Below are positions 1 through 26,479 of a DNA stretch of 27,390 bases, in pieces; within the stretch, counting starts at the first letter, position 1; each line of letters opens with the position of its first letter. The notes under the pieces were generated by a model, which was given only the letters and a program-made list of their open reading frames with translations, was not told the DNA's origin and made no database searches. This stretch comes from a virus: positions 1-27,390 of the IMG/VR virus record IMGVR_UViG_3300027969_003770; one strand, written 5' to 3'. The translations under genes and the position numbers were made by a program.

Positions 1-323
1 TTCTTTTAATGCTGGTTATAGACTGCTTGCTCTTTGGACCGTGGGGACTTGTAGTGTGGGGTATTCAAATGATATGGATCCCGTTCTGGGCAGCAGGTGT
101 AGTTAATGGACTAAGCCATTGGTGGGGATATCGCAACACAGATACCAAAGATACCAGCCGTAATATCATTCCGTGGGCAGTATGGATTGGTGGGGAAGAA
201 TTACACAACAATCATCACGCAGATGGTGCTAATGCCAAGTTCAGTCAGAAGTGGTATGAGTTTGATCTAGGTTGGATGTACATCTGCATCTTACGTTTCT
301 TTAAGTTAGCCACAGTTAGATAA
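1..323 (+). CDS. Fatty acid desaturase, C-terminal part (5' end outside window)
   Basis: The visible C-terminal ~105 residues carry a histidine cluster HNNHH preceded by GGEELHNN, plus an upstream LSHWWGYRN segment. This is the layout of the last histidine boxes of membrane di-iron acyl-CoA/acyl-lipid desaturases (stearoyl-CoA desaturase type). A hydrophobic tract precedes the boxes, as expected for a membrane enzyme. Desaturases introduce a double bond into acyl chains; phage copies are known in T4-like marine phages and presumably adjust membrane lipids. The reading frame is open to the window edge, so the start and the first histidine boxes are not visible. A strong hairpin terminator follows directly. 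The family call is fairly secure; the exact substrate is unknown. Confidence 0.8.
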   Translation, partial: LLMLVIDCLLFGPWGLVVWGIQMIWIPFWAAGVVNGLSHWWGYRNTDTKDTSRNIIPWAVWIGGEELHNNHHADGANAKFSQKWYEFDLGWMYICILRFFKLATVR

Positions 324-7487: not shown

Positions 7488-7771
7488 AATTTTTTGATAT
7501 TACCAACGAGAGCGATTTCTTAAAAATTAGAGAACTTGCTCCGGCGGTTGCACCAGGCACTCCGGGCGCACCTTTGGGTGCTCCTCCTGCTGCAGGACCA
7601 GCTCCTACAGCGCCAGCGGCTGCACCTGCACAGAATCCTGCAGACCAACAGAAGGTGATGGCTCAACAGGCGCTTGATCGGGTAAATCAAAAAAAACAAA
7701 TTCAAGATCAAATAAAATCAAAGCAAGAAGAACTTGCTGAATTACAAAAACAATTGGCAACTATAAAATGA
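7484..7771 (+). CDS. Ala/Pro-rich linker plus coiled-coil protein, 95 aa
   Basis: Three parts are visible: an N-terminal MKFFDITNESDFLKIRELA, resembling the short tags of neighbouring phage proteins; an Ala/Pro-rich stretch (about residues 20-53, e.g. APAAAPAQNPADQQ); and a C-terminal coiled coil (KKQIQDQIKSKQEELAELQ). It is coupled on both sides by ATGA overlaps (7484-7487 and 7768-7771), so it is made together with the 502-aa and 128-aa proteins. This could be a small scaffold or tether in the same particle; no named family. Function inferred only from context. Confidence 0.72.
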   Translation: MKFFDITNESDFLKIRELAPAVAPGTPGAPLGAPPAAGPAPTAPAAAPAQNPADQQKVMAQQALDRVNQKKQIQDQIKSKQEELAELQKQLATIK

Positions 7772-8154
7772 GATTTTTTGAATTTAGCGGCGATGATGAA
7801 GGTGATAGATTTGTTATGGTTCTTAGAAACTATATTGGTCGCGCCGCAAGTAAAAAAGCGCCTGCTAAACTAAATTGGAACGGTCTGAATAAAGTGTTGG
7901 CCACAAATGGTTTTGAATTAGCAGCTGACTATGAAATATTTAAAGCCATGTACGATTCAATGCCAACCATTCAGCAAATGGTTAAGAATTTTAATGCCGA
8001 CGGTATCGAACTTAACGTACCAGGTGCGCCGGATGAAGAACCAAAAGGTGACGGTACCCAAACTCCTGCAGACAGTCAAGCAGCAGTAGACCAAACAGCA
8101 GCATCGGCAGCAGCCGGGCAATTGGCCCAAAGTCAAGCAACTCCTCAGGCTTGA
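7768..8154 (+). CDS. Phage hypothetical protein, 128 aa
   Basis: Begins MRFFEFSGDDEGDRFVMVLR, again the MR-F-EF style. Residues ~20-85 form a compact helical domain (LNWNGLNKVLATNGFELAAD, then IFKAMYDSMPTIQQMV). The C-terminal ~40 residues are a Gln/Ala/Pro-rich low-complexity tail (AASAAAGQLAQSQATPQA). It shares the tail style of the two genes before it and is coupled to them by ATGA. Its stop overlaps the -35 box of the next promoter. Unknown function; possibly a virion or core protein. Confidence 0.72.
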   Translation: MRFFEFSGDDEGDRFVMVLRNYIGRAASKKAPAKLNWNGLNKVLATNGFELAADYEIFKAMYDSMPTIQQMVKNFNADGIELNVPGAPDEEPKGDGTQTPADSQAAVDQTAASAAAGQLAQSQATPQA

Positions 8155-8179
8155 CAAGCCGAATCTTTTAGTGTATAAT
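8151..8179 (+). promoter_or_regulatory. Consensus sigma70 promoter, immediately before an ATG
   Basis: TTGACA (8151-8156), exactly 17 bases, TATAAT (8174-8179): a perfect match at both boxes and the spacer. Only five bases separate TATAAT from the ATG at 8185, so transcription should start at about the start codon. Confidence 0.85.
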
Positions 8180-8184
8180 ACACT

Positions 8185-8883
8185 ATGACTACTATTTCCC
8201 CACCCCCATTCGTTGAACGATATCAATATAAAAATTGCGTTCAAATCAACGATCCAATTACACGCAAACGTGTCTACCAAACTCCGGACGGTGAAAGCCT
8301 TCCGTCAGTAACCACTATCCTTTCAGCAACCAAGGATATGACTCATTTAAATGAATGGAAGAATCGTATCGGTCATGCAAAAGCACAGCAGATTACTACA
8401 GAAGCGGCAGGTGTAGGCACAGCCATGCATGCCAACCTAGAGCGTTTCTTGGTTGGCGAACAACGACAGCCCGGTAATAATCCTGTTCACGTTCAGGCCA
8501 ACAAAATGGCTGATGTTATTATTGAAAACGGTCTAAGCAAAATGGATGAAGTTTGGGCCATGGAGCAGAGTTTGTACTTTCCCGGATTATACAGCGGAAC
8601 AACAGACTTGGTAGGAGTCTATCAAGGCCAACCTGCTATCTGCGATCACAAGCAGACCAACAAGCCCAAGAAAGCAGAATGGGTAGAAGACTACTATATT
8701 CAATTAGTTGCCTATATACTAGCACATAATGAAGTTTACAAAACAAACATGAAGCGTGGGGTTATCTTTATGTGTAGCCGTGCTTTTGAGTATCAACAAT
8801 TTGATCTAACCCCCGACAACTTTAACAAATACCAAGACATGTGGTTAACTAAGGTGGAAGAATATTACTCCCTAAGTAGATAA
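8185..8883 (+). CDS. PD-(D/E)XK nuclease (RecB/Cas4-like exonuclease family)
   Basis: A 232-aa nuclease of the PD-(D/E)XK superfamily. SLPSVTTILSATK near the N-terminus is the conserved helix of this phage exonuclease group; GVGTAMHANLERFL carries the GtxxHxxxE-like helix; EQSLYFPGLYSGTTDLVG gives the catalytic Asp (TTDLVG); AICDHKQTNKPKK gives the D-x-K pair; EDYYIQLVAYILAHNE is the QxxxY helix. It probably degrades or processes DNA for replication or recombination; similar genes are annotated as exonuclease in T4-like marine phages. No Shine-Dalgarno exists. A perfect host-type promoter places the transcript start at the ATG, so translation is probably leaderless. The next in-frame Met lies beyond the conserved PSVTTIL segment, so a later start would truncate the domain. 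Confidence 0.85.
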   Translation: MTTISPPPFVERYQYKNCVQINDPITRKRVYQTPDGESLPSVTTILSATKDMTHLNEWKNRIGHAKAQQITTEAAGVGTAMHANLERFLVGEQRQPGNNPVHVQANKMADVIIENGLSKMDEVWAMEQSLYFPGLYSGTTDLVGVYQGQPAICDHKQTNKPKKAEWVEDYYIQLVAYILAHNEVYKTNMKRGVIFMCSRAFEYQQFDLTPDNFNKYQDMWLTKVEEYYSLSR

Positions 8884-16219: not shown

Positions 16220-16288
16220 ATGAAAACGTATCAATTCGTTGTAGCAGTATTACTGATTACATTTGTTTTGGTACATGTTTTTATGTAA
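16220..16288 (+). CDS. Possible tiny membrane peptide, 22 aa
   Basis: Reads MKTYQFVVAVLLITFVLVHV and two more residues: a lone hydrophobic helix after a short polar start. It begins four bases after the cold-shock stop with no Shine-Dalgarno, so expression would rely on coupling. It ends just before the tmRNA acceptor piece. Single-helix phage peptides are common, but a chance frame cannot be excluded. Confidence 0.35.
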   Translation: MKTYQFVVAVLLITFVLVHVFM

Positions 16289-16634
16289 AGAATTGTTGTA
16301 GTCCTTGAATGGACAAAGTTGTAAAGTAAGGCATGTTGGACGGCGGTTCGATTCCGCCCAGGTCCACCAAAAGGGCACTACACCCCTCTTAATAATGGGC
16401 AACCTTGTAGTGCGTTTTTGATGGGCCTGACCAGGTTTCGACAGCGTGAGATAGGATAACGACTCAACACGTGGGGTCACGTAAAATACAAAAAACGTAA
16501 ATGCAAACGCAGATACATTCGACTTCAGCGCAATGAGCTTTACTGGAAACACCGTTTCCGGCAAAAGCAAAGTTGCCCTAGCTGCCTAAAAAACAGCGGT
16601 CCGGGGTAGGACTTACCTTGTAAAATAAACAACC
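16289..16634 (+). ncRNA. ssrA: Transfer-messenger RNA, circularly permuted (two-piece type)
   Basis: tmRNA rescues stalled ribosomes and tags the unfinished protein for proteolysis. Here the order is permuted. The tRNA-like 3' half comes first: T arm GGCGG-TTCGATT-CCGCC (16342-16358), acceptor strand CAGGTCC and ACCA (16359-16369). A 53-base spacer with an 8-bp hairpin (GCACTACA/TGTAGTGC) follows, then the 5' half starting GGGCCTG (16423-16429) and GGTTTCGACA. P1 pairs GGGCCTG with CAGGTCC (7 bp, one G-U); P2a pairs CAGCGTG (16442-16448) with CATGTTG (16332-16338); P2b pairs GGATAACGAC (16454-16463) with GTTGTAGTCC (16295-16304), one mismatch. An ACGTG/CACGT hairpin precedes the tag. The tag frame starts at GCA AAC (16503) and ends GCC CTA GCT GCC TAA (16589), i.e. 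ANADTFDF...KVALAA, 28 residues. An H-type pseudoknot follows (GTCC 16599 / GGAC 16609; GGTA 16605 / TACC 16614). The spacer would be cut out. The outer ends are estimates. Confidence 0.92.
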
Positions 16635-16663
16635 AAAAAAGACTACTTCGGTAGTCTTTTTTT
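16635..16663 (+). terminator. Intrinsic terminator of the tmRNA gene
   Basis: AAAAAAGACTAC / GTAGTCTTTTTT stem with a TTCG loop and a 7-T tail, directly after the pseudoknot region. Confidence 0.95.
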
Positions 16664-16710
16664 ATGGTTCAATAAAATTTTCAGCAAATATCTAAAAATT
16701 TTTAAGAAAT

Positions 16711-20004: not shown

Positions 20005-20033
20005 TTGACATTGTTTCCTCTTAATGCTATAAT
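20005..20033 (+). promoter_or_regulatory. Consensus sigma70 promoter
   Basis: TTGACA (20005-20010), 17 bases, TATAAT (20028-20033). It drives the SGNH hydrolase with a leader of about 20-25 bases that includes TTTGGAGA. Confidence 0.85.
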
Positions 20034-20062: not shown

Positions 20063-20473
20063 ATGTTAGAGTGTTTGATATTAGGCGACAGCCTTGCAGT
20101 AGGCGTGGGACAGATTCGTACCGAGTGTGTGACTCGTGCCAAGAGCGGCATCAACAGCTATGATTACGTGAACAGACACTTGTTGCATACCAAAGGCGAT
20201 ACTCAGGCCAAAAATGTCATCATCAGTCTGGGATCGAACGATACTGAAAAGATAAACACCTTTGAAGAATTGAATACATTACGTCAACTGGTTCAAGCAG
20301 ATCGAGTCTATTGGATCTTGCCTAATATTAAAGAAACCAAACGTACGGCAGTTTTGGCTGTGGCTCGCAAGTACAATGATCACGTTATTGATGCTAGGAG
20401 TGTCGACCGCAGTCCGGACGCAGTACATCCAACACATAATGGCTACAAAGAACTTGCAAAACAAATCAAGTGA
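20063..20473 (+). CDS. SGNH/GDSL-type hydrolase, 136 aa
   Basis: MLECLILGDSLAVGVGQI opens with the block-I GDS nucleophile (Ser10). IISLGSNDTEK is block III (G-x-N/D), and SPDAVHPTHNGYKELA is block V with the Asp-x-x-His catalytic pair. At 136 aa it is a minimal SGNH esterase/lipase/acyl-hydrolase without signal peptide. I start at 20063, where TTTGGAGAAATT gives correct spacing and the beta strand begins; the in-frame ATG at 20039 sits five bases after the TATAAT and lacks a ribosome site. Similar small SGNH proteins are common in phages and could trim host surface esters or act in tail assembly; target unknown. Confidence 0.82.
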   Translation: MLECLILGDSLAVGVGQIRTECVTRAKSGINSYDYVNRHLLHTKGDTQAKNVIISLGSNDTEKINTFEELNTLRQLVQADRVYWILPNIKETKRTAVLAVARKYNDHVIDARSVDRSPDAVHPTHNGYKELAKQIK

Positions 20474-25249: not shown

Positions 25250-25629
25250 CTGAAAAAGTATTAATAATTACTCAGCCCGACGATGTTGTACTTGATGGAT
25301 TCCGTCTACTATTGGTAGATCTAGATTCTGAACAAACTAAGATAATTTCCGATGTTTTATTAGAAATAAAATCTCCTGCCACAATCATTGCATACATGTG
25401 GGGTTCCAACGACGACAGCTATTGGCTATTAGACAAAAAAGCAAAAAGTAATTTAATTATTTTTAATGCTAACAGTCAAAATGAACTAGTAGTTGGGTAT
25501 ATGGCTGCTCAAAAAAATTCTCACTATTTTGGAATATTAAAAATTTTAGCACAGGCCAATGCAAAGGCTATATATGCTAGTGAGGATTGTAAATCACTAA
25601 TTACATTTAATTTAAATAATCATGAATAA
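25246..25629 (+). CDS. Conserved phage hypothetical protein, 127 aa
   Basis: Rossmann-like alternation of strands and helices: KVLIITQPDDVVLDGFRLLL, then PATIIAYMWGSNDDSYWLLD, SNLIIFNANSQNELVVGYMA, and AAQKNSHYFGILKILAQANA. The pattern 'IIFNA...GYMAAQ..SHYFG' is one I recall from T4-like marine phages; function unknown. No P-loop or other catalytic motif is evident. Coupled to the upstream membrane-protein gene by ATGA, and overlapping the bS21 gene by 8 bases. Confidence 0.75.
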   Translation: MTEKVLIITQPDDVVLDGFRLLLVDLDSEQTKIISDVLLEIKSPATIIAYMWGSNDDSYWLLDKKAKSNLIIFNANSQNELVVGYMAAQKNSHYFGILKILAQANAKAIYASEDCKSLITFNLNNHE

Positions 25630-25858
25630 ATCAAGAGTTTTAACAGGAAATACAGTAGTCGTAAAAGAAAACGAAAACATCAATCAGGCTCTTCGCCGTT
25701 TCAAGAAAAAGGTCGAAGACAGTGGCATGTTAGATGAACTTAGACGAAAAGAGTTTTATGAAAAACCAACTACCAAACGCAAACGCCTAAAAGGTGCTGC
25801 GGTTGCCCGTTGGAAAAAGAAACTTCGCGAACAGCAATTACCTAAAAAAATGTTTTAA
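25622..25858 (+). CDS. rpsU: Ribosomal protein bS21
   Basis: VVVKENENINQALRRFKKKV, followed by EDSGMLDELRRKEFYEKP, TTKRKRLKGAAVARWKKKLR and a basic tail, is bS21: the N-E-x-x-x-x-A-L-R-R-F-K-R/K core, the E-x-R-R-R-x-x-[FY]-x-x-P segment and the K-R-x-R-K-x-x-A tail. 78 aa versus 71 in E. coli. bS21 binds near the 3' end of 16S rRNA on the small subunit and aids initiation. Phage-encoded bS21 is known from pelagiphages and other viruses, where it may exchange into host ribosomes. It overlaps the upstream gene. The ATG at 25622 has no clear ribosome site; coupling or an internal TTTAAATA motif may serve. Confidence 0.93.
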   Translation: MNKSRVLTGNTVVVKENENINQALRRFKKKVEDSGMLDELRRKEFYEKPTTKRKRLKGAAVARWKKKLREQQLPKKMF

Positions 25859-25862
25859 TCTA

Positions 25863-25891
25863 TTGACTATTGGTCAGAAAGGTAGTATAAT
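25863..25891 (+). promoter_or_regulatory. Sigma70-type promoter immediately before an ATG
   Basis: TTGACT (25863-25868), 17 bases, TATAAT (25886-25891); the ATG at 25898 lies 6 bases after TATAAT, where transcription should start. Confidence 0.82.
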
Positions 25892-25897
25892 AACTGT

Positions 25898-26479
25898 ATG
25901 AACACAGATATTATGATTGACTTGGAGACGCTTGACGTACTCCCCTCCGCAACAATCTTAACCATCGGCGCAGTTAAATTTGATCCATTTGGTGAAGAAG
26001 CCAATGATCCTAAGATGGAAAAATTCTACCTTAAGGTAGATATCGATAGTTGCGATCGAATTGGTGCTACTGTTTCTACTGCTACCCTAGATTGGTGGGC
26101 CAATCAAAGTGCAGCCGCTCAAGCAGATGCATTTGATCCCACTAACCGTATTTCAATCGATGAAGCCATGGCAAAACTCTACAAGTTCTGTTGGGGTGGC
26201 AAGCGAGTATGGAGTCATGGTGCAGGATTTGACGTTATCATATTGGAATGGTATTTTCGAAAGATTGGTAAAGCTATCCCTTGGAGTTTCTGGGAGGTTC
26301 GCGATACCCGCACGTTATTCGATCTAGGTATCAATCCTAATCGTGTTTCCGTCACAGCTCACAACGCCTTGGCTGATGCTGTTGATCAAGCACAGGGAGT
26401 TCAAAAGATCTTTAGAACTCTACGTAGCTCAACAATGAGTGACGGCGCATACATTAACCCATTAGCAAAGACCAATTAA
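25898..26479 (+). CDS. DnaQ-fold 3'-5' exonuclease (DexA/ExoVIII-like)
   Basis: DEDD-type nuclease of 193 aa. MIDLETLDVLPSATILTIGA is ExoI (Asp8, Glu10); RVWSHGAGFDVIILEWYF is ExoII (the Asp in GFDV); RDTRTLFDLG and VTAHNALADAVDQAQ form ExoIII (the H-N-A-L-x-D-[AC] motif with the H....D pair). Closest style: T4 DexA and the RecE C-terminal family, which degrade DNA/ssDNA. No Shine-Dalgarno. The promoter's TATAAT is 6 bases from the ATG, so the message is probably leaderless. A second Met at codon 6 also lacks a ribosome site. The MazG-like gene follows one base after the stop. Confidence 0.88.
   Translation: MNTDIMIDLETLDVLPSATILTIGAVKFDPFGEEANDPKMEKFYLKVDIDSCDRIGATVSTATLDWWANQSAAAQADAFDPTNRISIDEAMAKLYKFCWGGKRVWSHGAGFDVIILEWYFRKIGKAIPWSFWEVRDTRTLFDLGINPNRVSVTAHNALADAVDQAQGVQKIFRTLRSSTMSDGAYINPLAKTN

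Follow-up and report, generated by a model that had tools for sequence, protein, structure and literature searches.

The cI gene, i.e. the repressor gene of the temperate phage lambda, has an mRNA that begins at the AUG. This mRNA is described as leaderless (PMC3160421, PMC9031893), and related arrangements are reported from cellular genomes: in the TA-led genes of Zheng et al. (2011), a −10-like TANNNT located about 10–12 bp before the start codon replaces the Shine-Dalgarno (SD) sequence, in clear excess over the control (PMC3160421), and in Burkholderia cenocepacia, 72 genes have a mapped transcription start that coincides exactly with the start codon and is immediately preceded by a TA-rich motif (PMC4603805). 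For the jumbo phage AR9, transcription starts were mapped and leaders of 26–491 nt were reported, together with the remark that phage transcripts are often leaderless (PMC5312081). We found no earlier report of lineage-wide leaderless genes in phages such as those considered here in the open-licence literature, which is weak evidence of absence.

Here we analyze a virus record of 27,390 bases (hereafter the window, i.e. the whole stretch of DNA under analysis), in which a nuclease gene and a DexA-like exonuclease gene each begin a few bases downstream of a σ70-type promoter, and compare it with related phage records.

Promoter and start codon of the nuclease gene

8151–8156, + strand: −35 element TTGACA (from the sequence), overlapping the TGA stop (8152–8154) of the preceding gene (7768–8154)
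8169–8185, + strand: perfect palindrome TAGTGTAT-A-ATACACTA, with arms at 8169–8176 and 8178–8185, its last base being the A of the start codon
8174–8179, + strand: −10 element TATAAT (TAATAT instead in 29 of the 53 distinct upstream sequences of the nuclease set, see below)
8176–8178, + strand: in-frame stop TAA inside the −10 element, 9 nt upstream of the nuclease ATG
8185–8883, + strand: PD-(D/E)XK exonuclease gene (PF12705, E = 1.5 × 10−4; phrog_298 exonuclease, E = 3 × 10−51)

The nuclease promoter consists of TTGACA, a 17-nt spacer and TATAAT, followed by the five bases ACACT and the ATG at 8185–8187, which agrees exactly with the preliminary description of this DNA; among the relatives, TTGAC is retained in most and replaced by TTGC- in a few. 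Because the in-frame TAA lies inside the −10 element, the coding frame cannot begin further upstream, and there is no alternative start codon between this stop and ATG 8185. Also as described previously, no SD sequence was found ahead of this ATG (an SD 4–12 nt before the start was taken as the mark of an SD-led gene). The next methionine is residue 52, and initiation there would delete conserved N-terminal residues, which bears out the earlier argument against a later start. The start is placed 30 nt past the stop of the preceding gene.

The window contains 2 perfect TTGACA-15..19-TATAAT sites compared to a mean of 0.04 in shuffled windows (0 of 100 shuffles reached 2); a chance match as the origin of the layout is ruled out by these shuffles together with the reversed-sequence control given below. 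Transcription is predicted to start at the A of the ATG or within 1–2 nt of it. With a discriminator of 5 nt, the optimal start would lie 1–2 nt inside the AUG, so that some transcripts might lose the AUG.

The DexA-like gene and a third promoter

20005–20033, + strand: second perfect promoter, with ATG 20039 of a GDSL-like gene 5 nt downstream
25863–25868, + strand: −35 element TTGACT of the dexA-like gene (from the sequence and relatives)
25886–25891, + strand: −10 element TATAAT of the dexA-like gene, 6 nt ahead of ATG 25898
25898–26479, + strand: DexA-like exonuclease gene (Rv2179c-like; profile matches), predicted to be leaderless from its upstream geometry

The same arrangement as at the nuclease gene had been claimed for positions 25863–25898. 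The layout is indeed present (TTGACT, 17 nt, TATAAT, 6 nt, ATG 25898), but the −35 element is imperfect and AGAAAGG is found 15 nt ahead of the ATG, i.e. beyond the usual SD range. An in-frame stop (25883–25885) lies 15 nt upstream of the same ATG. The first base of TATAAT is located 11 nt upstream of ATG 8185 and 12 nt upstream of ATG 25898, in the range of the TANNNT of TA-led genes.

The perfect promoter at 20005–20033, absent from the preliminary description, is followed not only by ATG 20039 but also by a further in-frame ATG at 20063, behind GGAG and 24 nt past the first. Given this SD-led start, the site is no clean leaderless case and was not counted as leaderless.

Conservation of the promoter-to-start distance

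For each of the two genes, 80 relatives were collected, and identical upstream sequences were counted once. The nuclease set (79 relatives and the window; L021 was excluded for too little upstream sequence) yielded 53 distinct 50-nt upstream sequences, in which the best promoter was chosen with the end of the −10 element permitted anywhere 0–25 nt ahead of the ATG. In all 53 (80 loci including the window), the −10 element ends 5–10 nt ahead of the ATG, with offsets of 5 nt (2 sequences), 6 nt (2), 7 nt (38), 8 nt (1), 9 nt (9) and 10 nt (1). The promoter-to-ATG distance is retained while the intervening sequence diverges.

The dexA set (79 relatives and the window; L129 was excluded for too little upstream sequence) yielded 50 distinct upstream sequences, 40 of which have the −10 element at 6 nt. 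In another 9, the promoter lies at 22–29 nt, and all 9 carry an SD-like leader with (A)GAAAG, the apparent SD sequence of these leadered relatives. The last one, scored at 3 nt, is taken to be L103, in which the gene starts with GTG and AGAAAG is present but a promoter is not evident. The two offsets indicate that the same gene exists in leaderless and SD-led forms. An offset of 5–6 nt is also kept by orthologues of QueE, the primase-like protein and the HAD-like protein (3 of 3 records with a match in each case), a 112-aa protein (4 of 4), DnaJ (3 of 4) and DexA (4 of 5).

Genome-wide survey of promoter-to-ATG distances

The exact leaderless pattern (TTGAC, 17–19 nt, TATAAT, 5–8 nt, ATG) was found in 15 of 16 related records, with 68 matches compared to 1 for the reversed pattern; some of these records partly overlap (e.g. 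G003 with G010, G011 with G012), so that the matches are not 68 independent genes. In further records, the pattern was present in 15 of 20 (37 matches vs. 0 reversed).

We then scanned 1.14 Mb from five related jumbo-phage records (G004 without its last 3,263 bases and G002 without its last 19) for promoters with at least 11 of the 12 consensus bases, counting an ATG as ORF-opening if it is followed by at least 50 codons. Among the 235 distinct strong σ70-like promoters, 45 have an ORF-opening ATG at 5–8 nt, only 2 at 9–12 nt and 1 at 13–17 nt (3 across 9–17 nt), and 111 at 18–36 nt, the last being a second, SD-led population. The reversed-sequence control gave 41 sites, none with an ORF-opening ATG at 5–7 nt. 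In the cultured jumbo phages 121Q, RaK2 and CBB, an ORF-opening ATG at 5–8 nt was found at 2 of 287 promoters, compared to 45 of 235 here, a genome-wide excess over the control of the kind reported for TA-led genes. For the exact pattern, the numbers are 40 of 151 promoters in the five records vs. 4 of 126 in RaK2, CBB, 121Q and GAP32 (Fisher's exact test, p = 3 × 10−8); XaC1, Atu_ph07, T4 and phiKZ have 0, 4, 0 and 1 exact-pattern promoters, respectively, and no match to the leaderless pattern. A layout common to all jumbo phages is ruled out by the counts in the cultured phages. The suggestion in the preliminary description that the arrangement is systematic is supported, as far as comparative sequence analysis goes, well beyond the window.

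One-strand arrays with near-perfect TTGACA/TATAAT promoters every few hundred bases were observed in G002 (69–84 kb), G001 (310–328 kb) and G003 (198–207 kb), and are probably the early region of these phages.

Properties of the predicted leaderless genes

All 44 leaderless starts at 5–7 nt are ATG, with 0 GTG or TTG, compared to 10 of 81 SD-led starts that are GTG or TTG (p = 0.014). Such a strong preference for AUG over GUG and UUG agrees with that reported for leaderless mRNA in E. coli (PMC9031893). Over the first 40 nt, leaderless genes show weaker structure than SD-led genes (mean −2.5 vs. −3.6 kcal/mol, p = 0.002; 39 and 94 genes, respectively). The leaderless set includes exonucleases, a primase-like protein, a UvdE endonuclease, DnaJ, QueE, a phosphoesterase, a glycosyltransferase and a D-Ala-D-Ala carboxypeptidase; thus, the earlier characterization of these genes as DNA-metabolism genes holds for many of them but not for DnaJ, QueE, the glycosyltransferase or the carboxypeptidase.

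A few short listed ORFs (e.g. G001 49686 and 194062) may be chance products. A pair consisting of the ATG at the promoter and an in-frame SD-led start 18–27 nt further was observed in the window (20039/20063), in G002 (70542, 71521 and 73588) and in G006 (96102 and 98980); two protein forms are possible for such genes. For a leaderless ORF of 172 aa in G003 (L182:5941-6456), the match to the DNA polymerase III alpha NTPase domain is confined to the first part of the domain (positions 16–94 of 260 in the Pfam profile); this may be a polymerase gene that is split or truncated.

The palindrome over the nuclease −10 element

In read-through RNA, the palindrome is predicted to fold as a hairpin that abuts the AUG, whereas RNA started at the nuclease promoter itself would not carry it. 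The subclass of relatives with TAATAT (29 distinct upstream sequences) shows matched changes in the arms: the pair 20–36 is C-G in 13 sequences and A-T in 12, and the pair 21–35 is C-G in 16 and G-C in 8. Slid pairings fit far worse, a few arms keep G-U pairs only, and a TGTA/TACA core recurs. The TATAATTAAG subclass of nuclease upstream sequences lacks the palindrome. The palindrome is unconvincing as a mark of leaderless promoters in general, 39 leaderless promoters being only slightly richer than 104 leadered ones (p = 0.048), and given this weak enrichment, we treat it as a feature of the nuclease gene only.

In the T4-type arrangement, a promoter sits inside an RNA hairpin and long transcripts are silenced, the hairpin covering the start in read-through RNA and being missing from RNA made at the promoter itself. 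Here, the hairpin is a prediction, with compensating pairs in the TAATAT subclass and no hairpin in the TATAATTAAG subclass; we suggest that it may silence read-through nuclease RNA.

Ribosomal protein bS21, tmRNA and the likely host

16269–16680: tmRNA gene of the permuted, two-piece type (Rfam RF04321, 102.7 bits; beta_tmRNA, 95.2 bits)
25622–25858, + strand: phage bS21 gene (phrog_21469, E = 5.4 × 10−22), directly upstream of the dexA-like gene

The bS21 gene is present in 7 of 7 related records, as is the permuted tmRNA gene, which was found in 0 of 3 among RaK2, CBB and 121Q; phage IF3, another conceivable modifier of initiation, was found in 0 of the 7 related records. Translational coupling of the bS21 gene of the window is suggested by the lack of an SD and by the overlap of its ATG with the end of the gene before it. 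For the tmRNA of the window, ARAGORN reads an unusually long tag of 28 residues.

The preliminary description speculated that phage bS21 and cold-shock protein may affect leaderless initiation. Ribosomes that translate leaderless mRNA in E. coli are reported to be selectively devoid of bS21, which is needed for SD-led but not for leaderless translation (PMC4929434), so it is not obvious that leaderless starts would benefit from additional bS21. Late expression of bS21 is reported for other phages (PMC9723584). These two reports, together with bS21 in all 7 records, are the grounds for a broader but improbable scenario, namely a translation programme with two modes in which bS21 acts as the early-to-late switch and the hairpin silences nuclease read-through RNA. 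Were it true, leaderless genes could be translated by 70S or protein-depleted ribosomes irrespective of bS1 and bS21, SD-led genes would gain once phage bS21 is made, and only RNA started at the AUG would make the nuclease.

The best matches of AhpC are in Herbaspirillum and Collimonas (66–67%), which, together with the beta/permuted tmRNA, points to a member of Burkholderiales as the host; for the source waters, we assume mostly freshwater habitats. The bS21 phages described in PMC9723584 have Bacteroidetes as their predicted hosts. We did not equate the present lineage with those phages: σ70-type promoters, AGGAG-type SD sequences, the Burkholderiales-like AhpC and the beta/permuted tmRNA point elsewhere.

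Probable leaderless expression and its alternatives

We consider lineage-wide leaderless expression to be the most likely explanation of the nuclease layout, with a probability of roughly 0.85. Under this explanation, the nuclease gene would have its own σ70-type promoter, at which host RNA polymerase would start on the A of the AUG or no more than a few bases away from it, yielding an essentially leader-free message whose 5′-terminal AUG would be bound by ribosomes. This would be a habit of a lineage of large environmental phages, in which about one-fifth to one-fourth of the strong promoters would serve leaderless genes, and many others ordinary SD-led genes. Geometry, conservation, enrichment, the lack of an SD and the strict use of ATG all favour the leaderless nuclease mRNA proposed in the preliminary description; we infer both the actual 5′ end and leaderless translation from these sequence features. 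To judge from the host-type σ70 promoter alone, expression of the leaderless genes would be early.

An ATG at the point of initiation might, instead, be a by-product of a favoured initial transcribed sequence (A-T-A/G at +1 to +3), the true start lying downstream with an SD. Such a bias is real: promoters without a leaderless ORF also prefer A-T-A at offsets 6–8 (57, 59 and 51%). As the whole explanation, however, it is ruled out, because 44 of 53 ATGs at 5–7 nt are followed by a frame of 50 or more codons, compared to 14 of 91 for ATA, ATC or ATT (p = 6 × 10−16), whereas in the control phages, the same comparison gives 2 of 14 vs. 19 of 122. A downstream SD-led start, 14–70 nt away, does accompany 11 of the 54 promoters with an ATG at 5–8 nt, as it does the 20005 site of the window, and 8 of these 11 are in frame (chance expectation 1 in 3, p = 0.009), so that these genes may have two starts or be wrongly classed as leaderless; in 14 of the 48 listed ORFs, another in-frame start codon lies upstream, which likewise speaks against the leaderless reading. 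On the other side, no SD-led start is located near 39 of the 47 leaderless ORFs with 40 codons or more, and a later start would remove conserved N-terminal residues in DnaJ, QueE, the phosphoesterase and the nuclease. For two of these proteins, later starts are excluded by the domains themselves, the J domain of DnaJ starting at residue 2, with the profile covered from position 1, and the phosphoesterase domain starting at residue 1. Taken together, we see only a very slim chance that the true starts generally lie downstream.

Alternatively, the genes could be expressed mainly from long read-through transcripts, by translational coupling or from a weak, distant SD, the adjacent promoter being minor. 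The short distance between the nuclease start and the preceding stop is compatible with this, and at dexA, the AGAAAGG upstream of the ATG resembles the apparent SD of the leadered relatives. Nevertheless, we regard it as quite improbable: the nuclease has no SD, its read-through RNA is predicted to form a hairpin against the AUG, and the promoter-to-ATG distance stays constant amid diverging sequence. As a point against the leaderless reading, read-through transcripts from preceding genes could also carry these cistrons. A further alternative bears only on a sub-feature and is compatible with leaderless expression, namely that the palindrome acts at the DNA level, as the operator of a phage or host repressor, and not as an RNA hairpin. 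Its position over the −10 element and the recurring TGTA/TACA core would suit an operator; the outer arm bases, however, change in matched pairs, unlike those of one fixed operator, with only G-U pairs kept in a few arms, and an entire subclass lacks the palindrome, so that we consider the operator unlikely, though less so than the preceding alternatives.

Implications and comparison with known systems

Gene finders and expression models for phages usually expect an SD. In this lineage, an identifiable class of genes, among them those for exonucleases, the primase-like protein, DnaJ and QueE, would be called wrongly or taken to be untranslated. The two distance classes, together with natural switches at the same gene (dexA, DnaJ and the phosphoesterase), allow leader gain and loss to be studied, and the co-occurrence of bS21 and the permuted tmRNA makes these phages well suited to studies of whether ribosomes are tuned by a phage to favour particular messages.

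The nuclease has homologues with 44–48% identity in 121Q, RaK2, CBB and XaC1 (L251, L249, L248 and L247), where TATAAT or TATACT is also located close upstream; in 121Q, the gene is preceded by a structural-protein gene. In these phages, the −10 element lies 13–17 nt before the ATG with GGAG in between, and transcription starting 6–7 nt from the −10 element would begin inside the SD, which suggests a layout intermediate between the leaderless and SD-led modes. AR9 is likewise a jumbo phage, with mapped starts, but these are followed by leaders of the length given above. The cI gene of lambda is likewise a phage gene with an mRNA that begins at the AUG, but it is a single gene, compared to dozens here, in very large phage records. 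As in B. cenocepacia, which belongs to the order of the likely host, a TA-rich motif adjoins the start; however, the leaderless transcripts of that bacterium are cellular, with regulators over-represented, whereas here they would come from DNA-metabolism and other phage genes. The present genes fit the definition of TA-led genes, with a −10 element in place of the SD and an excess over the control, but differ from those of cellular genomes in belonging to a phage lineage, in having full TTGACA/TATAAT promoters and in the two discrete classes of promoter-to-start distance. TA-led leaderless genes and single leaderless phage genes are known; the present case is unusual in its scale, in the clean separation of two distance classes and in being confined to a single phage lineage, in which bS21 and a permuted tmRNA are also present.
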